A DNA stretch of 64,000 bases from Halicephalobus mephisto. Its lineage: Eukaryota > Nematoda > Chromadorea > Rhabditida > Panagrolaimidae. Below are positions 966 through 42,293 of the stretch, piece after piece; position 1 is the stretch's first letter; each line of letters begins with the position of its first letter. The DNA lies in NCBI GenBank assembly GCA_009193035.1, contig SWDT01000007.1, positions 558,001 through 622,000 on the forward strand, read 5' to 3'. The notes under the pieces are model-generated. The model had not been told where the DNA came from. It made no database searches and worked only from the letters and a program-made list of their open reading frames with translations. The translations under genes and the position numbers were made by a program.

Positions 966-3900
966 CTAGAATCCAACCGGATACCAATCAATTTTTTGGG
1001 GAATAACTTCTTCTTCAAAAACTTCTATAATGTCATCTTCTTTGAATCTGACGTTCTTGTCTTCCAAAGCCACTCCGACTTCTGTTTTAGTTTTCGCAGC
1101 ACCGACAAATTCGTTTTCACATTTGAGAGATTCAACTTTGCCTTCATATATGACATCGTTTCCACGGACAAACCGGTAAATTGCAGATCTAAAAATACTT
1201 ATCACATTACAAAAACAAAAATTATCAGGAAATAAATTCAAAATTAAAAGTTTTAGAAGTTTATAAATTCTGGAAGCATTTGAAAAATCTACATCATACA
1301 ATTATCAACAGTAAATATTTTTAAATTGTTTAACTGCAAAATTTTAGAATTTTTGAGAAACAAAGATACCCAAAGGTCTATTCCGTAATCGATTTTTTAG
1401 AAGAATATTATAAAATAATTTAAAACTTATAATGGGACATTTCTGTCTCGAGCATTTATGTTCCAATTTTTAAAAATTTTTTAATTTAAAATTTAAAAAA
1501 CTATTTTAAATACCTTTATATTTGTTATATAGTGTTTTTAAATATTTTAGACAAATTTCTACTTTTAAATAGCTTTGATATAAAATTTGATACATCCTTA
1601 AAATTCAGAGTTAGTCTTCAGACTTCTGGATTTTGAAGGTCAATTATTGATTCTGGTCTTAGATTTAGAAACTATAGATTTTATTTCTTTAATAATATAA
1701 GTACTTTTTGTTCAACTTTAAAGATTTTAAAAATCCTAAAATCAAAATTGAAATCAATCTTCAGACCCCTGGATTCTGAAGGTCAATTATTGATTCTGAT
1801 CTTAGATTCAGAATCTAGGGGTTTTATTACTTTAATAATATAAGTACTTTTTATTCAACTTTAAAGATTTTAAAAATCCTAAAATCAATCTTCAGACTTC
1901 TGGATTCTGAAGGTCAATTATTGATTCTGATCTTAGATTTAAAAACTATAGATTTTATTACTTTAATATGATTACTTTTTGTAGAGTTTTAACTCTAAAA
2001 TTGGAATATAAATGTTCGGGACAAAAACATCACAAAACTCTAAACACCTTTTACATCAGAGTCACATAGGGTACAGAGCTCCCTATTCACCCTCGAGGTA
2101 CAATAAGCATTCAACAAACCTTAACTAACACTACAGTATCTCTATCGAAAATAATTTTTTTCTAATAATAACAATATTAAAACTTACTTGTTAAAAACTC
2201 CCCAATCAACCAGACATCCAGCAATAGGTACTTTTTTTTTGGTTTTTCCAGGTATCATAAATTCTTTCAAAACATGTCCTTCTCCAATTTGTTTCAATTC
2301 TATTTTTGGCGGAATTTTTTCTGACAATTTTTCCTTCAACGATTCCACAAGTCTATATATAACATTAAATTGTTCTAATTCAACATTTTTTTCTCCTGCT
2401 AAAATTCTAATATTTGCCGAAATAGAAATATTAAAACAATAAATAATCGAATTTGTTTCTTCTGCAAGTTCTATATGATTCTCTATCGGTGGTCCAACTC
2501 CAAAATCCACAATTTGTAAATCACATTGATTACTGTTATAAGTTTCGATCACGTCCAACAACGCTTCCAAGGTTCCATCTACGTCACTTCTTATGATTAT
2601 TCTTAAAATTGGTTTTTCATTTTTTTCAAATTTTTGAAATTTTTCTTCTTTTTTAACAATTAATTTATAAGTTGATCCGTATCTGATTCCTTTGTTTAAT
2701 AATTTTTGTCGATTTTCTAAATATTGTTTTCTATTTTCCATTCTTTTTTCTTCAATTATTTCTTTTTCATTTTCAGCTTTTTTATTTATTTCTTTCTTTT
2801 TCCTAAATTCCACTACTTGTTGAGCTTTTTGCTCATTTTCAACTTCTAGAATTTTCTCTCCAGGCGAAGGCAAATTATCACGCCATCCTAAAAAATTTTT
2901 AAAATTAATAAAATAAAAAATTCTGTTACCCGCTATCCTAACTGGTGTACTTGGTCCAGCTTCTTTCAAAGGTTTATTATTCTCATCCGTCATTGAACGA
3001 ACTCTTCCCCATGCTGTTCCAGCAACAAGAACTGTACCACGTCTGACAGTTCCTCTTTGAACGATCATTGTGCAGACTTTACCTAATCCTAAAAACAAAA
3101 CTAATCATAATATCACAAAAATATTTTTACAAAATCTCCTTAAAAAATTATTAAACAACAATGATAAAAAACCAAATTACTAAATTTACTATTTTCTATT
3201 CTATATGAAAATTCAAAAAAGATCAAAAAATTTTAAATTATAATTTTTATAAAAATCGAAAATATTTTAAAATTATAATTGTTACAAAAATCGAAAATAT
3301 TTTAAAATTATAATTGTTACAAAAATCGAAAATATTTTAAAATTATAATTTTTGCAAAAATCAAAAATATTTTAAAATTATAATTTTTGCAAAAATTGAA
3401 AATTTTATAATTTTTATAAAAATACTTACCTTGAGAATTTGTAGCTTCAATAACTACACCTTCAGATAATCCTTTAGAAGTACTTTTCAAATCCATCAAT
3501 TCAGCTTGAAGAATTAACGATTCTTGAAGAGCTTTGATGTTTGTTCCTTGAAGAGCACTGATTTCAACTACTTGCACATCACCTCCCATATCTTCCACCA
3601 CAATATCATACTGTAGAAGATCTCTTCTTGTTTTTTGTGGATTTGCTTGAGGTTTATCACATTTATTAATCGCAACCACTATAGGTACCCCAGCTTCTCT
3701 GGCATATTTAATTGATTCTACTGTTTGCTCATTCACTCCGTCATCTGCAGCCACAACGAGAACAACGATATCCGTCGCTTTGGCTCCTCTTTCTCTCATT
3801 GCTTTGAATGCAGCATGACCTGGAGTATCCAAAAATGTTACTTTTTTCTTCGTTTCTGGTAACTGAACAGAAAATGCTCCTATATGCTGAGTAATACCTC

Positions 3901-6201
3901 CAAATTCAGATTGAACAATCGATGAATTCCTCAAGGCATCCAACAAAGTAGTTTTTCCGTGATCTACATGACCCATAATTGTGACTACTGGAGCTCTTCT
4001 GATGCATTCTGAAGGCGACGGAGGAGGTCTAAAATTACGATATTTAAAAAAAATAAAAAATTTCGAAATTCTCTCTACATGAATTTTCTGGAATTTTCAG
4101 AACCCGAACTAACCTACAATTTTGATTTCACAAAATGGTTATTTCATAATCTTATACAATTTCGCAATCGATACTTTGCAATTATATCCAAATTTAAAAA
4201 CTTTTATGTCAAGGTTGCACAAAATACGAAATCCTGTTTATCTTCCAAGAGTGATTATTATTAGACAGTTCGGAAAGTAGTGACTATTTTCTTGATGCAC
4301 AGGTATTTTATCAGTCAACGGACACATCAGATGTCGTTAACTACAAAAATTTTTCCAGTTGGAATTTTAAATATTTCTTCTGTGTTCCTGCTTCGTCCTA
4401 TCTTGTTTCCTGTCGATTCTGCTGTTCTACAGGCTCCTGAATCTTCGATAGAAAAACGCCATTTTCGAGCTATTTTTCTTTATAAATTCAAATTGGACAG
4501 CAGCGCTTCTGAAACTACGAGAAAATCAATGAAGCCTTCGGACAAGAATCAGTTAGTGAACGGACAGTCCGCCAATGGCTCGAGAAGTTCCGAAGTGGAT
4601 ACTATTCCTTCAAAGATGAACAACGTCCCGGACGTCCACCTTCTGTCGACGATTCTATTCTGAAGAATATGGTTGAAGCTAACCCCGTGCAACTGTTCGA
4701 GAACTTGCGGAAGAGCTTCAAGTAAGTATTTCAGTCATTTCTGAACACTTACATAGAATTGGAAAGAAAAAAATTGGATAAATGGATCCCTCACGAACTA
4801 ATGGATCAGAACCGAAAGTGGCCTAAGAGAGTTTGTTGAATCCAGAAACCTGGCTTTCCCAACGGCAAGCGGTGGAAATGATATAACTCATTTCAAAAAG
4901 TCATCTTGAGTAAGTGGATTTGTAAGTTCCTCAAGAAATCACAACCCCCAAAGTACCCTATCGAGGACGAACTACTTTTAGCATTATGTAATAAGTAAAT
5001 AAAAATAAACCAACTGTGGAAAAACATCGTTTTCTTCCGACAATTCTTTGAGGATTTTCTCTTCATTGGGACGAGTGACGAACTTGGGCTTCACGTCGAA
5101 GATAGAACACAGATCCAAAATTTGTTTTTTATTCAATGTCAGATTTCCATCGAGGAACTTCATATTCGACTCATCCAATTCCACCAGACTGTCAGAAACA
5201 ACATCTAAATCCTGTTCTAGTATTCTCGACAATTCCCTGAAACATAAAAAATAAAACTTCATATATCAACTTTTATGAAAAACGAAATTTAATATATCAA
5301 CTTTTATGAAAAATGAAATTTCATAGATCAACTTTTATGAAAAATAAAATTTCATATATCAACTTTTATAGAAAAATAATTCTACTCCAAGTCCTTCTTC
5401 AAAATTATTCATATACCAAATTTTAAAGTTATTTAAGAGTAAATCCAGCATTTAAAACTTAATTTTTACAAATGCTATTTTGAAGCAAGATAATCTGGGA
5501 AATTCGAAAATTCAGTATTGCATTTTTTATTATTTAAAAAAACTAAATAGCTGTAATAAGTAGAAAATATAGATCTGATTACAAAAAATAATTATCAAAA
5601 TTGATCAAATTAAAACCGAAAATAAACATTTCTAAAATCAAAAATTCGTTAAAAATAAACAAATTTGTTTTTCCACTTTTCAGTCACTTTCTTGAGAAAC
5701 CAACTAAACTGTTATAATTACTAGAAAATATAGATCTGATTACAAAAAATAATTATCAAAATTGATCGAATTAAAACCGAAAAATTAACGATCCCAAAAT
5801 TCACTAAAAAAACGAATTTTTTTCAACTTCTGATATATGAAATTTTGCATTTTTGCCATATTCTTTCATTCTAGAAGAACAATTAGCAGAAATTAAAACT
5901 AGATCTCGGATATACATTAAATAAACCGAAAATTAGGTAAAGTCAGTTTAGAGTAAAATTATCTTTTTTATCGACTTAAAACTTACGTAATATCCATATC
6001 ATCGTAGACTTCCACAACCTTCTTCGTCGATTTCACATGTTTTACAACAACAGGCTCAATGAACTGTCTTCTTTTTCTTTGTTTTTTCAACAAAACTGAA
6101 GAAGAATGAAAATTTCGAAATTCCGTCATCCATCCCGTCGAAAAAACAGCCACATTCCTGGATAATCTTCCTAACAAAGTCCTCGTTATTACAGTATTCA
6201 T
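966..6201 (-). CDS. mtif2: Mitochondrial translation initiation factor IF-2, six exons
   Basis: GTPase that brings initiator tRNA to the mitochondrial small ribosomal subunit. Exons read as 6201-5987, 5236-5011, 4028-3430, 3088-2930, 2887-2188 and 1188-966, about 707 residues. The first exon begins with a basic, Ser/Arg-rich stretch ending FHSSS, typical of a mitochondrial presequence. Exon 2 matches the IF2 N-terminal helical region. Exon 3 holds the G domain: GHVDHGKT (G1), DTPGH (G3), NKCD (G4). Later exons give the beta-barrel, IF2 core ([16 protein letters not shown]) and C-terminal domains. All junctions agree in phase except exon 2 to exon 3, which is off by one base; that intron carries a mariner relic, so a micro-exon or unusual donor may be missed. 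The start is the ATG at 6201, 11 bases after a TTTTAG acceptor. It is the third gene of a putative operon. The 42-base intron at 2888-2929 is very short. Confidence 0.93.
1434..2030. mobile_element. Inverted-repeat element, copy 1, in mtif2 intron 5
   Basis: Roughly 600 bases with imperfect terminal inverted repeats: the left end reads through GAGCATTTATGTTCCAATTT, and the right end is its complement with several mismatches. The interior has about three head-to-tail copies of a 120-base unit containing GATTCTGAAGGTCAATTATTG and AAGTACTTTTTGTTCAACTT. The same terminal and internal words recur at 28808-29503. No coding capacity, so a MITE-like non-autonomous element. Confidence 0.65.
4264..4976 (+). 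mobile_element. Decayed mariner transposon in mtif2 intron 2
   Basis: The plus strand, with frame changes, encodes a mariner transposase N-terminal half: a helix-turn-helix region with [20 protein letters not shown], then [13 protein letters not shown] and a piece like LDKWIPHEL. The left end reads GACAGTTCGGAAAGTAGTGA after a TA. The right side shows only a partial complement (AACTACTTT near 4966). The catalytic domain is almost all deleted and frames are broken, so it is inactive. It lies antisense in an intron of the mitochondrial IF-2 gene, near the one splice junction whose phase I cannot reconcile. Confidence 0.8.
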
Positions 6202-6332
6202 CAATAACTATTCTAAAACCTTCAGATCCATTTATCCAAAAAAAAACAGAAAAGCACAATGGCAACAAACCACATTACGCCAAAAATTATAAAAACCAAA
6301 AAATTCAAAAAAATATAAACCAATAATTTTCG
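6202..6332 (-). promoter_or_regulatory. him-10/mtif2 intercistronic region with trans-splice-like acceptor
   Basis: 131 bases separate the him-10 stop from the mtif2 ATG. On the minus strand the region ends in a T-rich run and GGTTTTAG (AG at 6214-6213), followed by an 11-base leader and the ATG. No AATAAA was found on that strand. Spacing and acceptor fit an SL2-type operon junction; trans-splicing itself is inferred. Confidence 0.55.
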
Positions 6333-8039
6333 TTACGAGTTTTGTAAATCCCTCAATTCATTTTGAAGTTCTGTATTTTCATTCAACAATCGTTTTAATT
6401 CCTCAACATTCCTTCCACGAGCCGCTTGTAGCAGTTGATCATACAAAATTCCGCCAGTTTCGATCGATTGTTTCCCATTTTCATAAGTATTTTTTGCTTT
6501 CATTTTCAATTTTTGTACAAAATTCTTAGATTCGTTGAATTGTTTCTCCATTTCGTTAATTTTCCCTTCAAAAGCTTTTATTTCATTTAATCTTGTATTT
6601 TTTTCCTGAGCAAGGGTCTTTTGGGTCTGCTTAAGATCTTCAATTTCTCTGAAAATTTTAATTTTCATATAAAAATTTCTTTAAAAACTTACTTTTTTAG
6701 ACTTTTTAGGGAATTTTGACGAAATTCTATGTTTTGTTTTTCATTATTTCTGGTACTTTCGTAAGCTTCGATTTTCTCAAGTTGCTCAGATTCGTATGCA
6801 TTGTACGACCGTTCTGCCTGTTGCAAATTTTGTTGTTTATTTTCCAATATTATTTCAGCTTTTCTTTTTAAATTTTGTTCTTCTTGAACAACAATTTGTT
6901 TTTCTTGAATTTTTTGATTCTTTTTTTCTTCAAATTGTCCAATTTTCATATACATTTCTTCTGCATCGGCCAATTTTCTCGTCGATTCTCTTGCTTGTTT
7001 TTTATAATCAGCTATTGCTTCTTCAATTTGAAATACTTCTTTTTCCGTTCTTTCAATATCAGCATTCATTTTTTCTGGTGATGTTACAACTTCACTTGCT
7101 AATTGTTTCGCAACTAAACACGCATCTTCATAACTTCTTGTTAATGATTCTAATCTTGATTCCATTTGAACTATTTCCGATTCTTTCATTTGTGCATCTT
7201 TTTTAACTTCATCTTTCTTCAATTGCGCTTTATGAAGTTGATCTAGGAGCTCAACATGCTTCGATCCCAGTTCATTTCGTCTCCTTTTAGCCGTTTCGTT
7301 CTTACTTATTTGTTTCCCAATGTCATCTTGAAGTTTCGCAACTTTTTTTTGTTCTTCATCTAGTTGAGAACGAATACTTTCCATTTCATTAAACACATCA
7401 TCAACATCTTCCATTCTTGTCATTATAAATTTGTAGAATTTAATCAAAGAATGAAGGAAATAACAAGTCCTTTTGGCATCCGGCATAATCAAATCCGATA
7501 TCGTAAACACATGAGTATCATCCAAAGTTATATCGTCCGTCGATGACTGGATCAACTTCATAAGGACCATGAAACATGCTTGTGGATCGTTTTCATCTTG
7601 CATAAAATAATTATCCGGAAGACCAAAGATAGCAGAAACCAGACATTTATAAGCTGCATTCAGGACTTCTTGCTGAAAAAGTTAAAAAAATAATTTCAAA
7701 GTGAATTTTAGAAATTTCTAGGATAGTTAAAAACAGAATGAACACAGCAAGAATTAGTTTCTGTAACCACCAAAATTGCCATTTTTACACTTCTCTCATT
7801 TACGCGAGAGAGTAAAAATTCAACAAATCAGTCTTTTTAACTTTTACATCAAAAAAATAACTTTTTCTAAATTTCTACATCAAGAAAATAATTTTTTTAG
7901 ATTTTTATGTAAAAAATTGATTTTTCTTTAAATTTTTATATAAACAACTTACTTTTGGATTTCTACAGATATCAATGGTCAAACCGACTTCAGGAAATCT
8001 CTCCTGGAAGAATCTTATGATCTCACTGTGAGCACTCAT
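6333..8039 (-). CDS. him-10: Kinetochore protein NUF2 (HIM-10 homologue)
   Basis: NUF2 pairs with NDC80 to form the microtubule-binding arm of the outer-kinetochore NDC80 complex. Exons 8039-7953, 7672-6693 and 6648-6333 sum to 1,383 nt, 460 residues, with every junction in phase. The first ~130 residues (starting MSAHSEIIRFFQERFPEVGL) are the compact N-terminal calponin-homology-type domain. The rest is almost continuous coiled coil rich in Glu, Lys and Gln. The call rests on the N-terminal domain, the length, the coiled coil and the position directly behind ndc-80. The start ATG immediately follows TTTTTTAG, a trans-splice-type acceptor. A generic coiled-coil protein is possible, but the N-terminal motif makes NUF2 much more likely. 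Confidence 0.88.
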
Positions 8040-8173
8040 CTAAAAAATCCAAAAATTAAAAAACAAAAAAAAACAAATCCAAAAATATACAACTGTTTTA
8101 AACAGATATCATTCACAAATTTCTTCAAGATTACTGTATGTTAGAAAAACTCGAAAATGTTACAAAACAACAA
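8040..8173 (-). promoter_or_regulatory. ndc-80/him-10 intercistronic region with trans-splice-like acceptor
   Basis: Only 134 bases lie between the ndc-80 stop and the him-10 ATG. The minus strand ends in long T-runs and TTTTTTAG, with AG at 8041-8040 touching the ATG, so cis-splicing to an upstream coding exon is not needed. No AATAAA was seen here. This is the geometry of an internal operon junction in rhabditid nematodes. Confidence 0.6.
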
Positions 8174-10451
8174 TCAATCAGTAGTTGCGTCTTCATATTC
8201 CATATCTTCCACTTGTTTTAGTAACTGCATATATTCCGTCACAATTTTCGTCGAATTTTCATCTCTTTCAGATTGAACATTCACAAAATTCACTTGTTCT
8301 TGCATAAAATTCTCCAATTCCGCCGTCGCTATGTCTACTTCTTTCATGATTATATTTTTACATTGAGAATATCGTTCTCCAAAACTCACTTGAAGTTTAC
8401 CAGTTTTTTCTACAAGTTCTTTTACTTCCTTGTCTATTCTTTGTTTTTTTTGATTTTCTACATCACGTTTACTTGTTTCAATTTCTTCTTCCACTTTTAA
8501 TTTATGTTCTTGTCGTCGGATTTCCTCAATATCCCATTCTATTCCTTTCCGTTTTTCTGTTAAATCTTGATCAAGATGTTTTTTCTTCATCGACAATTCT
8601 TCCACAATCCTGTCACATTGACTACAATTTTCCTTACAAATCGCCGTTTGTTGTCTCAATTCAAAAGTGTAACAATCCATTTTCTCCAGGAGTAATTTTA
8701 AAAGTTCTTCAAATTTCTCCAATCTAGCAGTAGCTGCGGTCAAATCCATCGGTCTGTCTTCTCCAAGTGATGCAAATCCAAGAGTTACGAAATCTTGTTT
8801 CGAAAAATAAGATCCAGCAATTTTAGCCATGTCTTCTCCTACTTGAGACATTTTTTCTTGCAAAAGACCGAAATTTTTAAAAATCTGTCTTTGGAGATTT
8901 AGTGGTTCTTCTTGCCATTTCCCAAGTTCAATTCTGAATTCATGCAAACGACCTCGAAGACTATTCAAATGAGTAGTTTTTTGACGAGCTTCTTGTGCAC
9001 TCATTGTTTGATTTTGTATAGCTGTTCGTTTTTGGGAATTTTCATCTTCAATTTCCTTCAATACATTCATTTTTCTGTTGATTGATTCTGTTAATTCTTC
9101 GCGTTTTTTTTCTAACCCAACCAAAAATCCTTCAGCTTTTTCCAGATAATCCGCTAGAGCATTTATATCTGCTTGAACTCTGGTACATTCTTTTTCGATT
9201 TCATGGCATTCTGTTTCTTGACATGCTTCTCTTAATTGTTTTAATTCAGCTTCATAGGTCGCTTGTTCTTCGAGGATTTGTTCTCTATCAAGACATCCAT
9301 CTTCGTTCGCAACAAGACCATCTCGAAAATGCGCTTTTTCTTCAGTAAAAGCAGTCGGATCGTCGATGTTGACTTTCTTGGAAAGGTGTTTCTTGTAACA
9401 CGTCGTGAAATAATGATAAGCGTACTGCAAATAATTATTAACGATTAGTTCCAATCATTTTGTGGAAATTTACTGATCGAGTGGACTGGTTAATGTAATA
9501 GACAATCAGGGAATGAGAAAAGTCCGTTTATAGGGAGTTGAAGGTTCATTTAGAAGTTTATCTACATAGGTCAAAAGTCCATTCACAGGGGGTCTAGGGG
9601 TTCGTTTAGAGGATTTAGGGGTTTGTTCACGAAAAATCATGTAAAAAACTTGAATTTGGCCTAAATTTCTGAAATTAGGGACTTTTAAACACATCAAAAA
9701 CGAGAAAAATTCCTAGATTCTTGGGGAAATTTCAAGAACTTTGTCCAAAAACCATGGAAGTTTAGTTAGTTAGTAAAGTTGGAGATAAATATAAAACTCA
9801 CGGCTCTTTTTATGGTTTCTTCCTTGTTCCCGTGCATCAGCATGTCGGTGAGTTCGATATTCTCGTATCTTGTAACGAATTCAACCAACCATCCCAGAGC
9901 GTCGATGACGAACGGCCAAGAATGGGAAGCAGAGACGGTTTGCATGGTACTGGGCTTGATCTTGAGTGGATATCCGAGTGCAGCAAAGATTTTCGGAACT
10001 TCGTCAACGATATTAGTCAGTCTGAATTCAGAATCCAAGTAGACGTAGATGAACGAAAACATAGCTTCGAAATTCTTCTTGCTGGGCTCGTTGATGGCCT
10101 TGACATCGAATGCAGCGCCTTTTTCGATCAAGAAATCCCTAATAAGAGATTTCTGACGATCCATGTGTTCTCGATCCTTCGGATTACGGACTTGCTTCTG
10201 GGGACCTTGTCTGGTAGTGCTGCCGATGGATTTCTTCATACCAGAAGCCAGGATATTACTGCCCCCCAGGCTGAATCGTCCGAATCCCGCATCTGATCTG
10301 AAAACTCAAAAATTAAAACAAATTCATATATCAAAAACACTCACGGTCTTAATGATGGTCTGGAAACCATGTTGAACAAAGACTGACGGCCAGTAATACT
10401 GTTTTTGCTTCCGACCGGAGTCCGTAGATTGGCCTTGAATCGATCGTCCAT
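8174..10451 (-). CDS. ndc-80: Kinetochore protein NDC80/HEC1
   Basis: Outer-kinetochore microtubule-binding subunit. Exons 10451-10345, 10297-9802 and 9424-8174 total 1,854 nt, 617 residues, all junctions in phase, close to the family's usual length. The N-terminal ~70 residues are basic and Ser/Arg-rich, like the tail that Aurora B phosphorylates in known homologues. A calponin-homology domain follows at about 75-200, with the signature stretches VDEVPKIFAALGYP, SHSWPFVIDALGWLVE and MDRQKSLIRDFLIEKGAAF. The remaining 400 residues are coiled coil. The start is 7 bases after a TTTTTTAG acceptor. It is the first gene of the putative operon with its partner him-10 and mtif2. A GGCGGGAAA site lies about 190 bases upstream. 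Confidence 0.95.
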
Positions 10452-10466: not shown

Positions 10467-10641
10467 TTACACAAAAGTCCTCAAACACCCACAAACACGT
10501 GGAACACACACGCTACAGTAAACTGTAATGATAAATGTACAAAAATGAGAAAGCAAGAAAGAAAAAATTTTAAAAATTTTAAATTTACATAAAAACAAGC
10601 GGGTATTCGAAAAAAACAAAGTGCGCGCGCTCGATTTTCGT

Positions 10642-10650
10642 GGCGGGAAA
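10642..10650. promoter_or_regulatory. E2F-like site upstream of the kinetochore operon
   Basis: GGCGGGAAA (complement TTTCCCGCC) fits the E2F/DP consensus and sits ~190 bases upstream of the ndc-80 ATG, next to a GC-rich GTGCGCGCGC run. E2F control of mitotic genes is well known in animals; function here is inferred. A similar GGCGGGAAA occurs at about 31154 and related GGGAATT words occur in a dispersed repeat, so chance is possible. Confidence 0.4.
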
Positions 10651-10989
10651 TCGTGATTCAAATCGACAAAACTGGTCATGATTCGATATAAGAACTTTGT
10701 TCAAAAATTTTATTTCTTTTTAGACAAATTTAGTTGATTGAAAGTCAATGTGTAGTTTTCTGAATTTCCATGGAAAGTCAATGAGAGTAGAAAAATGACA
10801 AATCTGGTAATTGTTGAAGTAGATTCGCTTTGTTTTTCTGTTTTTAACAAGTTTTGGAAATACTTAAAAATTTACATTGAAATATTTTAATTTTCGTAAT
10901 AGTGTGATTTTTTTGAATTCTTGTGTAAGAGCTAGTAAAACTAAAAAAAAGGTAAATCTGATAATTCATGAAAGTAGAGTCGCACTATT

Positions 10990-11175
10990 CTCTTTCTTTT
11001 CTCTCTTTTTCTCTTCCTCTTTCTCTCTTTTTTCTCTTTCTTTTTCTTTCTTTTTCTCTTTCTCTCTTTTTTCCCTTTTTTTCTTTTTCTCTCTCTTTCT
11101 TTTCTCTCTTTTTCTCTTCCTCTCTCTTTTCTCTTTCTTTTCCTTTCTCTCTTTTCTCTTTCTCTCTCTTTTTTT
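10990..11175. repeat. Polypyrimidine (CT-rich) tract
   Basis: About 185 bases that are almost pure C and T on the plus strand, in irregular TCTCTTTCTTTTTCTC words. It lies between the ndc-80 promoter side and the 3' end of the amidase gene. Open frames across it on either strand (Lys/Arg/Glu-rich or Phe/Leu/Ser-rich) are composition artefacts. The rest of 10660-11318 holds nothing recognisable. Confidence 0.9.
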
Positions 11176-13379: not shown

Positions 13380-14400
13380 CGATGACAATTTCATCTATCT
13401 TGAGCTCTACAACAAAGGTCTAGTATTTGTGATTTCTCTTCATTGATTGATATTTGCTTTATGTTTTGTTATATCGGCATGGACCGGACTGATGTGTGAG
13501 GGAGATAAGAAACATAGCATCCTTGTTTGTTACTAACACAGATACTAGCAGTAAAGTAATAGCGACAACTACCTGTGAAAGTCGTGCTAGACTCGGCTTG
13601 TGTACCTACACTGGTCATTTATCACAAAAAGGGCACATTATAACGGCTCTAATTTACTAGATACATTATATTTAATACATCGACACATTGATATAATGTA
13701 TCTGATACATCAGAACTGGTTCAATGTGCCGGTTCATTAAGTTGAGGTCAGTGCATGATATTAAACATCTCGATACGTTAGATATAAGTATCTGATACAT
13801 CAGAATTTCTACAATGCATCGATACATATACAATACACCCGTCGCAATGTAATGCATTGATATATAAAATATAATAGATCGAATACATCAGAACCATTAC
13901 AATGCATCGATATATTATATACAATACATCCGTCGCAATGTAATGCATTGATATATGAAATATAATAGATCGAATACATCAGAATTGCTACAATGCATCG
14001 ATACATATATACGATACACCAATATCGTATTTAATATGTCAATACATTGAGTATAATATACCCAGTATACCAGAACCATTTTAATGCATTGATACGTGAT
14101 ATACAATGCACTTATCTTTTGTGTGTAGGTACACATTAATCTGATTACTCTGAGGATCGCTCATTATTCTCACAATCCAACATATTTAACGGAAATCAAT
14201 AACGAATATATCCCTAATAAAATTTTATTTATTTCAAGAATATCCATACATCTCTTTTTTGAACTTAACAAACATATTGCAGATTTATTTTTCCAAACAA
14301 ATTTTTTTAGTTTTTTATATCTTCAAAGTTTTATTATTAAATTTTACTACATAATTTGAAATTCGCGAACATAACTAAAAATTATTTCTTATTAATTTTC
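13380..14400. repeat. Intergenic block: satellite and mobile-element relics
   Basis: No gene is visible. Positions 13380-13640 are of ordinary composition and unrecognised. About 13655-14110 repeats the GATACATCAGAACCATTACA / ATGCATCGATACATAT words of the window's left-end satellite. 14115-14179 ends in CACAATCCAACA and resembles the terminal part of the LTR at 491-719, possibly a divergent LTR fragment. 14180-14400 is AT-rich with nothing identifiable. Confidence 0.6.
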
Positions 14401-14411
14401 AAAGATGTGGT

Positions 14412-14855
14412 TTATTTGTTAGAATCGATTTTGCAGATGAATGGCTGGTTGTTGAAACATGGAATAGTTTCGAATCCGTCATTGCCATCTAGAGTCCTCC
14501 AAGTGACACATTCTCCATCGACTATTGGATTGTCGTTGAACTTTTTGAATTTCGCCAGACTTCCATCGAGCCAAATCCATCGTTGATAACTCACAGAAGT
14601 GTCCTTCTTCAAGCCGATCCAGACGGGATAAAGTGGGACCATGGTGACAGAAAAGGACTTGAGATAGCCATATTCTTCTTGACTCATGATCGAAGTCAGA
14701 TAACCCCCCACATTGCTACAGTAAGAAACAGAATCGTTCCAGTTGAGGAAGATAGAAGGGACAAAGTAACAGTTGCCACCGTACCCGGCAGTCCAGTTTG
14801 AAGGACATTGAGCCGCAACTAATATTGGAAAAAATAAGAAAATAAAAAATTTCAT
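14412..14855 (-). CDS. Secreted single-domain C-type lectin
   Basis: 147 residues in one exon, start ATG at 14855. Residues 1-15 form a signal peptide ending VAAQ. The rest is one C-type lectin fold: an opening CPSNWTAGYGGNCYF, WNDSVSYC, VWIGLKK, a long loop with WLDGS, then ECVTW and a closing PCFNNQPFICK. At least six conserved-position cysteines can make the usual disulphides. The EPN/QPD-type sugar-binding triplet is not evident, although NDNPIVDGECV occupies that loop, so carbohydrate binding is uncertain. Nematodes carry large families of such clec genes, often immune- or gut-expressed. The orthologue cannot be named. Confidence 0.92.
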   Translation of the reverse strand: MKFFIFLFFPILVAAQCPSNWTAGYGGNCYFVPSIFLNWNDSVSYCSNVGGYLTSIMSQEEYGYLKSFSVTMVPLYPVWIGLKKDTSVSYQRWIWLDGSLAKFKKFNDNPIVDGECVTWRTLDGNDGFETIPCFNNQPFICKIDSNK

Positions 14856-15119
14856 CTTTTAATTCCCAACTTTCGAAAAATAGCAAATAATCCAAAATTA
14901 ATTTTTCAGTGATAAGTTGCAATCGCCTAATCTGATAATCAATAATCTTTAAGGTTTTTTCATTTTTATTTTTGAGGACGAGAATTCAACTTCCAACACG
15001 AAAGCCTTTGAAGATTATAATAAATTAAATTTTTTATTTGAGTAAATACGAATTTAAAAAATTAATGAAAAAAGTGAAATCATCTTTTGCTAGAAAATTC
15101 TTGACAACACAAAAAGAGT

Positions 15120-16275
15120 GCATTAAAGTGGTTGTAATGTATCTGATACATTAGATTCAATATATAGTTGCATTAAGTTCACAAAAAAGCGTAACTGTAG
15201 ACTTTTTAATAATTGTGAAATGTACCATAATCGTCATATATCTTATGAATATTCGGTATTTGTGAAAATTGTAACTTAATAGTGACGATTTGCATTTGAT
15301 ATTTGTTTAAAGATTACGCTTTTTTGGATGTTGATATCGGTAGATTATGTATGATATATGGATACATTAAAACGGCACTGATTATCTGATACACTAGATT
15401 CAATATATAGTTGCATTAAGTTCACACAAAAGTGTAACTTTTATATTAATAACAATTTTGAAATGTAACAATCGTCACATTTTTGATGAATATTTAGCAT
15501 TTGCAAAAATTGTAACTTAATAGTGACGATTTGCATTTGATGTTGGATTAAATATTACGCTTTTTTGGATGTTGATATCGGTAGATTATGTATGACATAT
15601 GGATACATTAAAACGGCACTGATTATCTGATACATTAGATTCAATATATAGTTGCATTAAGTTCACAAAAAAAGCATAACTTTTAAACCAGTAACAACTT
15701 TGAAATGTAACAATCGTCACATTTATGAATATTCGGTATTTGTGAAGATTGTAACTTAATAGTGACGATTTACATTTGATGTTGGATTAAAGATTACGCT
15801 TTTTTGGATGTTGATATCGGTAGATTATGTATGACATATGGATACATTAAAACGGCGCTGATTATCTGATACACTAGATTCAATATATATTTGCATTAAG
15901 TTCACACAAAAAAGCGTAACTTTTATATTAATAACAATTTTGAAATGTAACATAATCGTCACATTTATGAATATTTAGCATTTGTGAAAATTGTAACTTA
16001 ATAGTGACGATTTGCATTTGATATTTGTTTAAAGATTATGCTTTTTTGGATGTTGATATCGGTAGATTATGTATGACATATGGATACATTAAAACGGCAC
16101 TGATTATCTGATGCATTAGATTCAATATATAGTTGCATTAAGTTCACACAAAAAAGCGTAACTTTTATATTAATAACAATTTTGAAATGTAACATAATCG
16201 TCACATTTTTGATGAATATTTAGCATTTGCAAAAATTGTAACTTAATAGTGACGATTTGCATTTGTTCCTGAACA
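15120..16275. repeat. 241 bp composite satellite, about five copies, each with a palindromic MITE
   Basis: The landmark TTGCATTAAGTTCAC recurs near 15169, 15411, 15652, 15891 and 16133, a period of 240-243 bases. Each unit has two parts. One is a stretch related to the GATACATTA satellite (GATGTTGATATCGGTAGATT, GGATACATTAAAACGGC). The other is a nested hairpin: outer arms AAAAAAGCGTAA and TTACGCTTTTTT, inner arms AATCGTCAC and GTGACGATT. The hairpin interrupts the satellite word AAGTT-GATATCGG, so it looks like an inserted MITE later amplified with its host repeat. The last copy lacks the distal part. Confidence 0.88.
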
Positions 16276-18099: not shown

Positions 18100-21000
18100 T
18101 TATACAAGTTGTGCAAACATATCTTCTTCATCCATTGAAAAAATTTTTTGTGATTTCTTCGGAGTTGAATATTTAATCCCTTTCAATCTCGTTGGACTTG
18201 TATCTTTATGTCCAGCAATATCAATATCCAAACCTTTGTATACTGTAACTTCTGTATTTGAAATTTTCTTTTTAAATTTTCTAAATTCAGAAGTTTTCAA
18301 AGAACTTGGAGTCGGTTTTTTGAACGTTTTCAAAAATAACGAAGACGAAACAACAGACACACTCGACATCGCCATCGCAGCCGCCGCCATCCAAGGCTGA
18401 AGTGCTATTCCAAAAGGTTTAAAAACTCCAGCAGCAATAGGAATTCCAATAGCATTATAAATAAGTGCAAAAAATAAATTAAGTCTTATTCTTTTAACTG
18501 TTGCTTTAGAAAGTAAAACAGCTCCAACAACATCTAGAAGATTATTTTTCACTAAAACAATTCCTGCACTTTCAATAGCCACATCTGATCCATTTGCTAT
18601 AGCTATTCCTACATCCGCTTGAGCCAATGCCGGACTGTCGTTTACTCCATCTCCAACCATCGCAACTTTGTTTCCATAAGCCTAAAAACACTCCTTTTTC
18701 ATTTACAACCATGTTATTAAAAAGAAAAAAAAGTTGTAAAATTTCCAAAACTTCCAAAAATAAAAAAATTAAAATTACTACTTTTAGAATTTTCACAATA
18801 ACTCATTCATCTACACAAAGATTCAAAAACTTTAAAAACCAATATTCTTAAAATATTTGAAAATTCAAAGACAAATTATTAAAAAATTTTTAAATTGCAA
18901 AATTTAGGCAAAAAATAAGTTGATTTTTGCAACAAATTACAAAATTTACTACTTTTCTATTTTTCTATTTTTACAATATCCCTCATCTACAAAAAAACTA
19001 AAAAATCATAAAAATTTCACTACTGTAAAAATCTAAAAATTTACTACTTTCCTATTTTTACAATATCCCTCATCTACAAAAAATTACATTACTATAAAAA
19101 TCCAAAAATTTACAAAAAAGTAATTTCATACGAAATTTACTACTTTTCTATTTTTACAATATCCCTCATCTACAAAAAATTAAAAAATCATAAGAATTAT
19201 ACTACTGTAAAAACCCAAAAATTTACTACTTTTCTATTTTTACAATATCCTTCATCTACAAAAAACTAAAAAATCTTTTTTTTCTCAATATTTATTCAAA
19301 AACAAACCTGCAACTGTTTAATTTTGTCTTTCTTCTGATTAGGCAAAACTTCTGCAAATACTTCCTTAATTCCCACTTTTTTCGCAGTTGCTTCTGCTGT
19401 TTTAGCATTATCTCCTGTTAATAAAACAACTTGCATTCCCATTTTTTGAATTGAATAAACCGCTAACATTGCTTCTGCTTTAACTTGATCACTAATACTT
19501 ACAACAGCAGCAACTCTTCCTTGAATTCCAACAAGAATAGAAATATTTCCTGCTTGTCTTTCCATAGAAAGCACATTTTTAACTGTCCATGGAATAACGA
19601 TAGAATTTGCTGACAAATAACTTTCTGTTCCAATAATTACTTGAAATTCTGATAGTTCATTCCATTTTTCAGTTAAGTTTTTGGAAGAATCTAAAAAACA
19701 AAATAATTTTTTTAAAAAATTCTAGAAATTTACACAAAAAAATTTCAGAATTTTCTATAAAACTTTAAAAATTCCAAGATTTACTGAATTCAAAATTAAT
19801 AAAATTCCAAAAGTTCAAAGATCTACTAAATTCAATTTTTTTAATTTAAAAAAATTTTGAAATTCACTATATTCTAAAAATCACTAAAATTAAATAAATT
19901 TTGAAATTTAGTATATTCTAAAAATCACTAAAATTAAATAAATTTTAAAATTCACTATATTCTAAAAATCACTAAAATTAAATAAATTTTGAAATTTAGT
20001 ATATTCTAAAAATCACTAAAATTAAATAAATTTTAAAATTCACTATATTCTAAAAATCACTAAAATTAAATAAATTTTGAAATTCACTATATTCTAAAAA
20101 TCACTAAAATTAAAAAACCCACCGTCAATTAAAGGAGTAACTTCAACTTCACTTCCATCCAATCTCAACGTTCCTGGCTTCAACTCATCTCCATCAACAA
20201 GTTGCAAATTTGTCAAATTTTTGATAAAACTCGATCCAATAACTGCTTTCAAATTCGATATAACTCCACTAACACCATTTCCAGCCGATACACAAAACTG
20301 TGATACCGTACCCCATTGAGAATTTCCTAATAAATCTTTCGAAAATACAACAATAGAATTTCCGATAGGATGTTCTGAATTAGATTCTAGACTTCCTACA
20401 AGTCCAACAAGAGATTTAAAATTAATAACTTCCTGAGGCAATGTAGCATAAACCTTCACAACTCTCGGTTTTCCTTCTGTAATCGTTCCAGTTTTGTCAA
20501 AAACTACCGTATTAATCTTCTGAATCACTTCCAGCGGTTCTCCTCCTTTAATTAAAATTCCATTTCTAGCCCCAACTCCTGTTCCAACCATGATCGCCGT
20601 CGGGGTAGCTAAACCAAGAGCACATGGACATGCAATTGCAAGTACAGTAATCGCATATTCAAAAGCTGTTCTTATTGTCATTTCCCAATGTCCTCTCACT
20701 TCCTAAAAATAAAAATTCGCATTACAAAAATTAAAAATAATTATCATTACAAAATTTTTCCAAAACAAATTCCTAGAAATTTCAATTTCATACATCTTAA
20801 GTTCCTACAGTATTCAAAAACTACTAAAATACTTATTTTTATAAATTTCTAGAAGTTCTTACAGTATTCAAAAACTACTAAAATATTTATTTTTATAAAT
20901 TTTTTCAAAACAAACTTTAAAAATCTTTAGTTCTAAATCATTTTAAATTTTTACTGTATTCCAAAAGACCCTATATTCTTCAAAATCTCGATCATATTAT

Positions 21001-24000
21001 TATAAACCATAAAAATTACAACTTTTAAATTATTGATTTATAAAAAATATAAACCCCAAAAAATCTTATTACAGTAGAACTTGGATATGATACCCTTGCT
21101 ATGATATATCTCTTGTTATAGCATACAGTCTGAATGAGTTTGGTTAGTCTGTTTTCAAATTTATCCCCTATATAATATATCCTTTCTTATAACATACGCT
21201 TTACCCCAATTTCAAGAAGGTATCTTACATCCAAATTCTACTGTATTACAGTACTGTATACAATCAACTCTCGATTTAACGTAATTATTTTCAATCCCGG
21301 CAAAATTTCTTTTAAAATAATATAAATTAACTCTCAATTTAACATCATTTTTGCCCGGTCCTTTGGATTACGTTATATCGAGATTCGACTGTACTTATTT
21401 CCAAAATTAAAAAATACTAAAAACTCACAATATTAGGATCCGGTTCTTTAAAAATTCCAATAATCAACCACGTAATCAATGTAATTGATGATACAGTAAC
21501 CACAAATGGCACAAAATATCCAGAAAGTTTATCCGCTCTTTGTTGTAATGGTGCTTTAGAAGTTTGAGCTTCTTCAACAAGTTTAACTATTTGTGCTAAA
21601 GTTGCATCTTGTCCAACATGTGTTGCTTCAATAATTAACATTCCTGTTTGATTAATTGATCCACCTATTACTGGATTTCCTTGTTTTTTAATAACAGGCA
21701 TACTTTCACCTGTTATAAATGATTCATCTGTTGAACTTTTACCTTCAATAACAATCCCATCAACTGCTATTTTTTCACCAGGTAAAACTTTAATCAAATC
21801 ACCACGTTGTACAAGTTCAATATCTATTCCTCTCTCAGTCAATATATGTCCTTCATTATCCCTCGTTATTAATCTTGCTTCTTTAGCCTGCAATGACATC
21901 AACTTACTCAAAGCTTCTGATGTTTTTCCTTTAGCTTTGTATTCTAACCATCTTCCTAAAGATATAAAAACCAACAACATAGGAGGAACATCAAAAAACG
22001 TCATCGGACTTGAATCCCATTGTAAAAATATCGCAATAACAAGGATAGTGACTGAATATATATAAGCAATTGAAGTCGCCAAAACAATCAGAACATCCAT
22101 CGTTGTTGTTCCATGTTTAACCGCTTTCCATGCTTGAGTATAAAAATTTCTTCCTCCAAACCACTGAACAGGTGTTGATAATAAAAGTAATAAAACATTA
22201 TCCAACGACAAAGCAGGTACAATTATTTTTGTTTGTTTTTCTGGATGCATCGGAGTATGCATTAACCAATGAAAATAAATCATAATTGCCATAACAGGAA
22301 TTCCAAAAATAAGAGAAATAAGAAATGATGTTCTCCATCTCCTGATATCCTTCTCATGAGATAACGACTTCAATCTGTCCTCATGAGTAGCGAGTTCTGC
22401 AATGTATCCTAAGCCCTAAAAAACAATCATCAAATTAATGTGAAAATTAAAAACAAAAATTACTGTAAAATCATCTCAAAATTGTAGTTTTATAAAAATT
22501 TTTAGTTTTAAAAAACAAAAATTTCAACAAAATTACAGAATTTTATACAAATTTTCAAAAAATTCTATTAAATTTTAACTTTTTATAAAATTTCAGAATT
22601 TTTCATTAAATTATGAAAACATAAAATTTTTGGAAATTTTAGAAGCTTCCAAATTATTCAAAAATTTAATAAAATTTTACAAAGTATTTCTGGAAAATTC
22701 TAGAACCTATGAATTTTCACCAAACATTTTTATAATTTTTTTAAATTCTAAAATATTCAACGAACATTTGTAAATTTATAAAATTTCCATAAAACTTTAA
22801 GTGTTTCGTTTTCGGTTTATTTCGGACTCAAATTTGGGTGATTCAATAATTATCATAAATGTAAAATAAAAATATTAAATTAAATTAAATTTTGTTAAAA
22901 CTGTTAGTAATTTTTCTGGATCGATGACGTTATCGCTATTCCGATCATTAATCTTAGTAAATTAAAAATTAAACTTCAATTATTATAATAAATGTAAAAT
23001 AAAAATATTAAATTAAATAAAATTTCGTTAAAGTTACTAGTAATTTTTCTGGATCGATGGCGTTATCGTCGTTCCGATCATTAATCTTAAGAAATTAAAA
23101 ATTAAACTTCAATTATTATAATAAATGTAAAATAAAAGTGTTAAATTCAATAAAATTTCGTTAAAATTGTTAGTAATTTTTCTGGATCAATGACGTTATC
23201 GCCGTTTCGATCACTAATCTTAAGAAATTAAAAATTAAACTTCAATTATTATCATAAATATAAAATAAAAATATTAAATTCAATAAAATTTCGTTAAAAT
23301 TGTTGGTAATTTTTCTGGATCGATAGCCTTATCGCTATTCCGATCATTAATCTTAGGAAATTAAAAATTAAACTTACTTCAATAACTTCAATAATGTCCC
23401 GAGGACCGACACTTGCTGGGACGAATTCAACAACGGCCGAATTTGTTGAGAAATTTACCGTACAGTTTTCTACACCTCTCAGATTCATCAAATGACTTTC
23501 TATTCTTTTAGCGCAGTTTTCAGAATCCATATTTCCTATTGTTAAATTTATTTTAGAATCCGTATTTCCGGCGCCTTCAATGAGACTAGCACCGTAACCT
23601 GTGTCATTTATGGCATCACGAATTTTCTCCGGATCAATTTTGTCTGGATCATACAGAACATCCGCTTTCATGAACATTAACGAAACTACGATAGATTTGA
23701 TCCCGGGAACTTGACCGACTTGTCTCTCAATGAAGGCGACACATGAGGCACAGGTCATTCCTTCCACATTTAAAGAACACTTTTTTATTTCTCCCGGTAA
23801 CTCTTCTGTTTTCTTCGAATTCGGCATTACGATCACGGTTTCCGTGTTACTTGACGACGGAACAGAACGACAAGAATCATCAAAGACGTTTTCTTGACTA
23901 GTAAGTTTACAATCAAATCCCATGTCGTCTATAGTTTCGGCTACTTGATCTCCAGTCCATTTAGAAGGATCGAAAATAATCGTTCCTGAAAAATAATGAT

Positions 24001-24843
24001 TAAATTACGTACAAAAATAATTTGAAAAAACCATGCGTAAAAATGTCCAAAAAATATTATATGCAAAAATCCAAAAATTCTATGTTATCATATATGAAAA
24101 TTTTCAAATATCATGGCAGTACATCTAAATATCAAGAAATACCGTGATATTATATATGAAAATGCAAAAAATCAAGAAATTATAAATGTAAGTTTTCAAA
24201 TATCATGGTAGTATATCTAAAAGTCGAAAAATACCTTGATTTCATATATGAAAACTCAACAATTTTGTAGTATAATAGATGAAAATTTAAAAACACTAAG
24301 ATATTATATATGAAAATGCAAAAAATTAAGAAATTATAAATGTAAGTTTTCAAATATCATGGTAGTGTATCTAAAAGTCGAAAAATACTTTGATTTCATA
24401 TATGGAAACTCAACAATTTTGTGATATCATAGATGGAAATTTAAAAACACTAAGATATTATATATGAAAATGTATAAAATCAAGAAATTATAAATGTAAG
24501 TTTTCAAATACCATGGTAGTGTATCTAAAAGTCGAAAAATACTTTGATTTCATATATGGAAACTCAACAATTTTGTAGTATCATAGATGAAAATTTAAAA
24601 ATACTAAGATATTATATATGAAAAAAGAAATACTACGATATATGGGAATTTTAAAAATATAAAATTCTACAAAATCAACATACCTTCTTTCTCCTTGAGC
24701 AAAACTTTAATTTTGAAGATTCCATCCTTGGATCCTATGTTAGATTCGATGTTTTTGACGCAGGACATGCACGTCATGCCATCGATGGACACGACTGCTT
24801 TCTTTTTCGTTTTCGGAGATCCCAAAAGATCCGCATCTTCCAT
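18100..24843 (-). CDS. cua-1: Copper-transporting P1B-type ATPase (ATP7/CUA-1)
   Basis: Pumps Cu(I) across secretory-pathway or plasma membranes using ATP. Exons 24843-24684, 23985-23378, 22415-21429, 20702-20123, 19690-19308 and 18681-18100 total 3,300 nt, 1,099 residues, all in phase. Order: metal-binding domain 1 (GMTCMSC, Cys 25/28), domain 2 (GMTCASC, Cys 132/135), and domain 3 in which CxxC has decayed to MDSENC (residues 206-211). Then transmembrane helices, the TGES actuator loop near 498, the CPC copper channel motif at 610-612, DKTGT with the phosphorylated Asp 654, SEHPIG, TGDN and [12 protein letters not shown] short Ser/Lys-rich cytosolic tail ends ...MFAQLV. The ATG lies one base after TTTTCCAG, usable by trans-splicing or by joining to the upstream exon at 27024-27100. 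It converges with the dynein light chain; stops are 70 bases apart. Confidence 0.97.
21072..21243. mobile_element. Pogo/Tigger-like MITE, family 1, in cua-1 intron
   Basis: 172 bases flanked by TA, beginning CAGTAGAACTTGGATATGAT and ending in the near-perfect inverse ...ATCCAAATTCTACTG. Internal words TTATAGCATAC, GAGTTTGGTTAGT and TATAACATACGCTTT recur in every other copy in this window. TA target duplication and CAGT ends are the pogo/Tc1-mariner superfamily pattern. Non-coding. Confidence 0.85.
21261..21391. mobile_element. Pogo/Tigger-like MITE, second family, in cua-1 intron
   Basis: 131 bases flanked by TA. The left end CAATCAACTCTCGATTTAAC mirrors the right end, which read in reverse is CAGTCGAATCTCGATATAAC. 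The TIR differs from the neighbouring family-1 MITE only 17 bases away. Non-coding; an autonomous source is not in the window. Confidence 0.75.
22845..23372. repeat. Four tandem ~140 bp copies at an exon-intron junction of cua-1
   Basis: A ~140-base unit is repeated four times in intron 2, directly after the donor of exon 2. The unit contains AATTGAAGTTTAATTTTTAA on the minus strand, close to the exon end plus donor ATTGAAGTAAGTTTAATTTT, so the array may have begun as a duplication of the splice junction. Each copy can encode an EF-hand-like loop on the minus strand (see findings). Positions 22430-22840 are plain AT-rich intron. Confidence 0.75.
24050..24640. repeat. ~155 bp tandem repeat in cua-1 intron 1
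   Basis: About four copies of a unit with TTTTCAAATATCATGGTAGT, AAAAGTCGAAAAATACTTTG, GGAAACTCAACAATTTTGTA and AAACACTAAGATATTATATA. Intronic and non-coding. Confidence 0.8.
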
Positions 24844-31376: not shown

Positions 31377-34300
31377 TTACAAATCTCGGGCATAAGAACT
31401 AGATCTGATGACAGCAGCAGAGGCAGAAGTAGCCAAACCTGGGGCTGCTGAAGCCGTGGCGCGGTTCTTGGAGCGGAGTTTGGAAAGGGAGTTCTCGGCA
31501 AGATCGGCTCTTTCCTCGGCAGATTCCTGAAAAAATTAATTTTCATATATGAAATCCATACAATTATAAAAACTAAACATGAAAATCACCATAAACTCAT
31601 TTGAGGAAAGATTTTAGGGGAGTTTTAGGTCTATTAAGAAGGAATAAAAAGAAACCAAGTCGATTTTATTTTGGAATTTTTTAAATTTATTATTTTTTAA
31701 AAATTAACTCGTTTACGTGGGGATTTAAAAATTATAAAAAAATAATAAACTGATAAGAAAATTAGTAAAATTACTGCGGAAAAAGTTTTTAAAGTTCTAA
31801 TTAGGAAATTTAGGTAAACGAACAAAAAGAAGCGCGAATGAGGACAGAGCGAGTCGAAATTCATGATAAATCATAAAATTGCCGTTTTTTCCATTTTTAT
31901 ATACCTCGCTTCTTTGCGCGGGAATTTGAAAATTACAAACAAGTTATATATCAATTTTCCTAAAAATTTGTACATTTTCATATAAAAAACAACTTACGAG
32001 TTGAGCCTGGAGTTGACGATACTTGCCCAAATTGAGGGAAGCAATTTCCTCGGCTTCTTCGACTTGTCTCTTGTAGACCTTGAGTTTGCCTTGGAGTTTG
32101 TCGATGAGGTCGGTGAGACGTTCGGCGTTCTTCTTGTCTTCTTCGACTTGGAAATCAAGTTCTCTGACCCGACGTTCGGCTTTACGGAAACTTTTGTCGG
32201 TTTCTTGATGACGACGTTGTTCACCATCGAGTTCTTGTTCGAGAGAACGGATTCTTTCCTCCAATTTCGCAATAATCTTCTTTCCACCCTTGAGAGCAGC
32301 AGCTTCGGCTTCATCAAGTCTAACTTGCATTTCTTTAATCTGTTGTTCAAGTCCATGACGAAGTCTATCAACATGTTGAGAATGCTCCTGTTCTTGACGA
32401 AGTTCCTCAGCAAGTCTAGCGGCATCAGCCCCAGCTCTCTTGGCAGCCTCGTCGGCGTTCTTGAGTTCAGTGAGGGTTTCATCGAGTTCCGTATGAAGAG
32501 CCGCAAGTTCACCTTCAAGTTTGCGTTTGATGCCTCCAAGAGAGTTGACCTGGTTGGACAAGTCGTTGACAGCTTCGCGGAGTTCGATAAGGTCCTGTTC
32601 CGCCGCACGACGAGCTCTTTCAGCAGCTTCAGCAGCATGAGCAAGTTCGTCTTTTTCAGATTGAAGAAGAGCATTTCTCTTTTCTGCATTGAGATATTGT
32701 TCACGCAATTCATCACGATTTCTTTGTTCTTCTTCAACTTGAAGTTGAAGTTCTCTAATTTGATCTTGATGACGTTTGATGGTCTTCTGAGCATCAGCAT
32801 AAGCTTTGTTGGCGTGATCAAGAGCAATTTCGAGTTCGTTGATGTCAGATTCGAGTTTTTTCTTGATTCTAAGAGCTTCTTGTTTGGCTTTGGATTCTGC
32901 TTCCAAAGTGGCTTGCATTGATTCAAGAGCTCTGGCGTGATTTTTACGAGTATTTTCGAATTCTTCTTCTTTTTCTTGAATACGTTTTTCGATTTCGGAA
33001 CGAATTTGAGAAACTTCAACTTGAGCTCGCAGAACTTTGGATTCTTCGGCTTCAAGAGCAGCTTCGGCTTCATCAAGAGCATGTTGGATTTCTTCTTTTT
33101 CAACTTCAAGACGACGGACGATCTTCTGGAGCTCGTGGACGGATCTTCCACCTTCTCCGAGTTGATCTGTGAGGTCCTTAATCTCCTGAGCTAAAGCCTT
33201 GTTTTCACGTCTAGTGGATTCCAAAGCTTCAGCAAGTTCGTCTTGAGCCGTTTTGGCTCTGAACAAATCAGTTGCCATATTTCTGGAATCACGTTGAGCT
33301 GCATCAAGTTCATTAGCAAGATCATTAGTCTTCTTTTTCCATTCATCAATAATTTTATCGAATCCTTTTTGTTTTCTTTCAAGACTTGCGGCATATGCAG
33401 CTGCTCTTTCAACATCGACCTGAGCATCGTCGATTTCTCCCATAAGTTTGTGACGAGTTTTCTCCAAACTTGCAATTTTCGTGTTTGCAGCTTCATTGGC
33501 GTCGGACAAATCTTGAACTTTTTGCTGAAGTTTACGTTTAGCTTCTTCGATTTCCTCGAGTTTAACCAATCCTTCTCCTTCGAATCTTGCTTTCCATTGT
33601 TGAATTTCAGCATTAAGTTTCGAAATTTGACGAAGAGATTCACCTTTAGCTTCTTGTTCGTCATCAAGTTGCTCACGAAGAGCGTCGTTCTCGTGTTGAG
33701 CATTCTTGAGTTGAGCAGCCAAAGCCTGACGTTCCCGAGATTCCTCGTCAGCAGTTCTCTTGGCTTCTTCGAGTTGAGAAGTCAGTTGACTCTTGAGACG
33801 ATGAAGACTATTAAGTTGGTTTTCGGCGTCTTCAAGTTGACGTCCAAGATCACTGTTCTCGTTCCCGAGACGAGCTTTCAAAGAAGAGAAATCGTTCAGA
33901 AGTCTGGCTTGTTCGTCGGTCTTAGTTTGGAGTTCGGCAAGTTGGACTTCGAGATTTTTAACGACTTTTTCGGCTTCTTGACGACCTCTAAGTTCAGAAT
34001 CAAGCTGAGAATTAGAATCTTCAAGTTCACGTTGAATCTGAGATTTGTCCTTCTCGGCCTTGACTTTGAGTTTCTGAAGTTGTTCAACTTGATCGGTCAA
34101 TTCAGCAACAGCATCTGTATGTTTCTTTCTGAGTGATGCAAGTTGAGTTTCGTGATTCATGTTGTTTTCTTCCAAATCACGTCTAAGTTTAGCCAATTCA
34201 GCTTCACGTTTTTTATTAACTTCAATCTGAGCCGCTGTAGCTCCTCCTGCTTCATCCAAACGTTCGGAAATTTCCTCCAATTCACGTTGAAGTTCAGCTC

Positions 34301-42221: not shown

Positions 42222-42293
42222 GTCTTCGGTCGGGAATCGAATCCGAGTCTCGTAACTTTGCAATCACATATACTACCACTGTACTACCGAAGC
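42222..42293 (-). tRNA. tRNA-like sequence, probably pseudogene or SINE head
   Basis: On the minus strand, GCTTCGG at the 5' end pairs with CCGAAG near the 3' end (six of seven pairs). TAGTACAGTGGTAG fits the D-arm/A box, and GGATTCGATTCCC fits the T-arm/B box with four of five stem pairs. The loop TTGCAAA would give anticodon GCA, but the anticodon stem pairs poorly and position 72 is mismatched. Overall it resembles a degenerate tRNA-Gly-type body. A functional tRNA is unlikely; a tRNA pseudogene or tRNA-derived SINE with working A and B boxes fits better. Confidence 0.5.

Follow-up and report, generated by a model that had tools for sequence, protein, structure and literature searches.

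A probable SL2-type operon of ndc-80, nuf2 and an IF-2 gene in the nematode Halicephalobus mephisto

Known nematode operons and the organization of the locus

Worm operons mostly combine unrelated genes, and deg-3/des-2 of C. elegans is an operon encoding two subunits of one receptor. According to PMC1657053, pdi-1/cyn-9 is a C. elegans operon of functionally related genes, fib-1/rps-16 forms an operon in both C. elegans and Pristionchus, and the rpl-27a/rpa-1 operon (CEOP1032) was found in six other nematode species. The same paper gives a distance of approximately 100 bases from the polyadenylation signal to the acceptor in C. elegans operons and reports that SL2-like leaders were once thought to be limited to Rhabditina; the title of a later paper, cited in PMC9303266, describes SL2 resolution as a widely conserved nematode trait. 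Regarding the two kinetochore genes considered here, the strain list in PMC6436928 places him-10 (nuf2) on chromosome III and ndc-80 on chromosome IV of C. elegans, in agreement with the earlier note on this DNA, which had given different chromosomes. Operon mentions in PMC6436928 refer to reporter constructs in the 12 of 23 places covered, and the literature searched for the pairing yielded no nematode operon that joins NDC80 with NUF2.

Within a stretch of 64,000 nucleotides of the H. mephisto genome (hereafter the window; GC content 30.1%), ndc-80 (10451-8174), nuf2 (8039-6333) and mtIF-2 (6201-966) follow one another in this order on the minus strand. The arrangement resembles C. elegans SL2 operons in the common strand, the short gaps, the acceptors near the downstream ATGs and the presence of SL2-type RNA genes, whereas it differs from that system in gene content, as him-10 and ndc-80 occupy separate chromosomes there. 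With pdi-1/cyn-9 and deg-3/des-2 it would share the placement of partners in one process within one operon, although different proteins are involved. The rpl-27a/rpa-1 pair is comparable in that it is also adjacent in this genome, on the same strand and with a gap of 171 bases, but it encodes two ribosomal proteins and carries an AATAAA after its first gene. The cluster is a probable member of a known nematode operon class, with a functionally pointed pairing of NDC80 and NUF2. What stands out is the grouping, as two strict kinetochore partners lie head to tail here compared to separate chromosomes in C. elegans. We assign a probability of about 0.82 to the reading of the cluster as an SL2-type operon of three genes.

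Gene models, gaps and acceptor sites

Spliced models of the three genes were built with intron ends picked by eye; all three translate without internal stops, and all 9 introns are of the GT...AG type, their ends having been so picked. The ndc-80 model (NDC80/HEC1) comprises 3 exons (10451-10345, 10297-9802 and 9424-8174) and encodes 617 aa, the nuf2 model 3 exons (8039-7953, 7672-6693 and 6648-6333) and 460 aa, and the mtIF-2 model 6 exons (6201-5987, 5236-5015, 4028-3430, 3088-2930, 2887-2188 and 1188-966) and 705 aa. Less usual donors occur twice in mtIF-2, with GTTGGT at 5014 and GTAACA at 2929. The ndc-80 protein matched the N-terminal domain family Ndc80_HEC of Pfam (E 6.3e-22) and HEC1/NDC80 structures in the PDB (best E 1.1e-17). 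The earlier note had read the protein at 6333-8039 as NUF2, and the databases bear this out, with a match to Pfam Nuf2 (E 5.7e-9; 36.8 bits at a cut-off of 25; profile positions 10-141 of 141) and to NUF2 chains in the PDB (best E 2.3e-4). Ndc80_HEC and Nuf2 each had one match in the genome of 59,891,389 bases (59.9 Mb). The third protein matched GTP_EFTU (E 8.5e-37) and IF-2 (E 7.9e-26) and, judged from the family and its N-terminus, appears to be an IF-2 of the mitochondrial type. Spc25, sought as a further kinetochore gene, reached a best E of 0.342, below the family cut-off. The mtIF-2 intron 5014-4029 contains, in antisense, a mariner-type transposase fragment at 4513-4725 (+), which matched Pfam HTH_48 (Mos1 HTH; E 1.9e-7).

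Several other features were noted in the window. A single-exon C-type lectin gene at 14855-14412 (-) matched Pfam Lectin_C (E 1.6e-11) and has an N-terminus that looks secreted. Exons of a P-type ATPase, of the copper type by eye, extend over 18100-24004 (-), and one of them matched Hydrolase (3.6e-8) and E1-E2_ATPase (6.9e-7). Large frames of a myosin heavy chain were recognized by eye at 31944-37661 (-), namely 35643-37661 and 31944-35294, and a tRNA gene was found with Rfam at 42222-42293 (-). Degenerate repeats with TACATCGATGTATTAAATA-like units are visible by eye at 1-500 and 13650-16150.

The spliced models confirmed the common strand, gene order, coordinates and gap lengths given in the earlier note. 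From stop codon to ATG, 134 bases (8040-8173, minus strand) separate ndc-80 from nuf2 and 131 bases (6202-6332, minus strand) separate nuf2 from mtIF-2, compared to 867 bases between ndc-80 and the preceding gene. The latter, whose first large exon is a Pfam NAAA-beta match, has an AATAAA 84 bases past its stop codon.

Each of the three starts is preceded by a putative leader acceptor TTTTAG on the minus strand, and the claimed distance of 0 to 11 bases from the ATG held for all of them: the motif ends 7 bases before the ATG of ndc-80 at 10451 (10464-10459), directly before that of nuf2 at 8039 (8045-8040) and 11 bases before that of mtIF-2 at 6201 (6218-6213). A TTTTAG that ends 0-11 bases ahead of the ATG was counted for 19 of the 981 ATGs on the minus strand of the window, among them the three starts, and for 8 of the 704 on the plus strand. 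The 3/3 starts in the cluster are far above this background, with a chance of about 1e-5 if the sites are independent, in a comparison made post hoc. Position 6212, proposed earlier for the mtIF-2 leader, is the first base past the acceptor; it is not the ATG, which lies at 6201. The common strand, short gaps and acceptor motif near each downstream ATG are features that define SL-type operons of nematodes, and together they argue for an operon.

As leader acceptors are found ahead of single nematode genes too, a TTTTAG by itself does not establish an operon. The cluster could accordingly consist of three closely spaced but independent genes, every one of them with a promoter and an SL1 leader of its own, and SL1-type RNA genes are indeed plentiful in this genome. 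With gaps of approximately 130 bases, however, each gap would have to accommodate a promoter in addition to a 3' UTR and a polyadenylation signal, and the genome also contains SL2-type RNA genes; together with the location of the E2F-like site described below, which lies upstream of ndc-80 and is missing from both gaps, this makes the absence of any operon very unlikely.

No AATAAA was found in either gap (134 and 131 bases scanned), as the earlier note had stated. Its use as operon evidence was rejected, because the rpl-27a/rpa-1 control in the same genome carries an AATAAA; the missing signal is thus not diagnostic. The scan for variants of the polyadenylation signal yielded just two in the gaps, an AATGAT at 8113 and a GATAAA at 6236, the latter 12 bases before the TTTTAG of mtIF-2. 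This acceptor is the weakest of the three, as just four T precede its AG. An additional upstream ATG, which opens a short frame, lies at 6231 on the 5' side of this acceptor, so that trans-splicing at the acceptor would remove this ATG from the mtIF-2 message.

The weaker acceptor and the lack of a polyadenylation signal at the usual place in the second gap would fit an operon of ndc-80 and nuf2 only, with mtIF-2 packed behind it under its own promoter. It would also agree with this arrangement that the best mtIF-2 exon match in a relative lies on a contig of 3138 bases, on which linkage is not seen. On the other hand, the gap between nuf2 and mtIF-2 measures just 131 bases and is as rich in T as the first (53% compared to 54%), and we regard a two-gene unit as unlikely.

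Downstream of the three-gene operon proposed here, the region 965-423 on the minus strand contains neither TTTTAG nor TTTCAG. The open frame of 137 codons at 836-423 (-) had no Pfam family match up to an E of 1, and over the 4 kb that lie past the start of the window, minus-strand frames reach 74 codons at most. The frame at 836-423 may be due to chance, and it was not counted as a fourth gene.

Leader RNA genes, control operons and relatives

With a sequence pattern allowing up to 3 mismatches, 9 genes for SL2-type leader RNAs were found in the genome, while a reversed control gave 0. Three criteria of Guiliano and Blaxter (in the excerpt of PMC1657053) were applied to the leaders, and 9 of 9 have a spacer of 3-4 between GGTWW and CCCA, a spacer of 8 between CCCA and AG, and an AAG end. 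An Sm-like site is present in all nine genes, and the one that was folded formed three stem-loops (z -3.15). The genes are located on the assembly contigs 5, 219, 261, 295, 317 and 318 (L002-L008, L012 and L013) and represent four leader variants, which are useful for typing leaders in this species. With the Rfam model for SL2, 34 matches up to an E of 10 were obtained, of which 4 exceeded the cut-off and several of the weaker ones are SL1-type by eye; the Rfam model for SL1 returned 50, 0 of them above the cut-off. Among the loci fetched, the canonical SL1 leader was present in 32 distinct sequences.

Two C. elegans operons served as controls for conservation, and one of them is kept. The rpl-27a/rpa-1 pair has its AATAAA at base 22 past the first stop codon; rpa-1 was picked from three Ribosomal_60s matches by eye and from its position. 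Fib-1 and rps-16 have one match each and lie on different contigs, so this pair is not kept. The nine SL2-type genes and the adjacency of rpl-27a and rpa-1 support an SL2-type reading of the cluster, and the SL2-operon-like geometry recognized earlier is thus backed by the gaps, the acceptors, the leader RNA genes and this control. Against an operon stand the gaps with no signal beyond the two variants at 8113 and 6236, the short T-run before mtIF-2 and the split of fib-1 and rps-16.

The protein search with NDC80, in which the 7996 candidates sharing most words were scored, yielded three proteins. The closest one (P0002, JGI) is 90% identical, has a length of 537 aa and derives from a contig of 1856 bases; it spans the junction of ndc-80 exons 2 and 3 without a break, as a transcript would. 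The second one (P0003, ENA) is 88% identical and occurs on 2 contigs, the longest with 6786 bases, and the third, a Panagrolaimus NDC80 with 33% identity, is the nearest named one among the candidates scored. The corresponding search with NUF2 (7177 candidates scored) yielded one protein alone (P0005, ENA), which is 87% identical and also occurs on 2 contigs, the longest with 6786 bases. For the mtIF-2 exon, the best match (P0006, ENA) has 95% identity and is the one on the contig of 3138 bases, which speaks neither for nor against linkage of the third gene. Because P0003 and P0005 agree in contig number and longest length, NDC80 and NUF2 are probably linked in a relative as well, which lends support to the operon reading. 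The earlier description of the arrangement as lineage-specific holds in comparison with C. elegans only, and at least one relative probably has the linkage too.

The equal contig number and length in another source also bear on the quality of the assembly. As it consists of 331 contigs, misjoins are possible, and the neighbourhood of the cluster could in principle be an artefact. Nevertheless, the window lies inside a contig of 859,149 bases, and together with the matching contigs of the relative this leaves an artefact a scarcely credible explanation.

Putative promoter region and the proposed three-gene unit

E2F sites and CHR sites are marks of cell-cycle promoters. A scan of 868 bases upstream of ndc-80 found one TTTSSCGC, the E2F-like site TTTCCCGCC at 10650-10642 (-), followed downstream by a CHR-like TTCGAA at 10611-10606 (-). 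The pair lies some 155-200 bases ahead of the ATG of ndc-80. TTTSSCGC occurs 4 times in the window and is absent from both gaps of the cluster, an indirect indication of a unit with one promoter. The CHR-like TTYGAA is not discriminating, as other copies are present at 10705, at 10662 and, within the gap between nuf2 and mtIF-2, at 6309. The ordered pattern TTTCCCGCC-N10-40-TTYGAA has 31 matches in the genome, and its reversed form, run as a control, has 1; 3 of the former look by eye like SL1-type RNA genes and 4 are two local repeat pairs. The genome-wide pattern of an E2F-like followed by a CHR-like site can be taken as a lead to a promoter mark, and the region 10606-10650 as a putative cell-cycle promoter for the whole three-gene unit. 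Between the upstream gene and this region, 188 bases (10988-11175) on the minus strand are unbroken purine (GA).

Under the operon reading, RNA polymerase II would start upstream of ndc-80, probably at the promoter with the E2F-like site. The polycistronic pre-mRNA would then be cut and polyadenylated behind ndc-80 and again behind nuf2. Three mRNAs would result, with an SL2-type leader joined to those of nuf2 and mtIF-2 at their TTTTAG acceptors. Co-transcription of this kind would provide both NDC80-NUF2 halves and the mitochondrial translation factor jointly, most likely in dividing cells, and it may bring a stoichiometric benefit. It is tentatively conceivable, though we hold it with considerable doubt, that selection keeps the operon since it places NDC80 and NUF2 under one cell-cycle promoter and couples them to mitochondrial translation, in place of the separate regulation implied by the C. 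elegans chromosomes.

A shared unit for two strict kinetochore partners would offer a natural test of whether operons are selected for stoichiometry, and a comparison of NDC80 and NUF2 levels between nematodes with and without the linkage could serve for this purpose.
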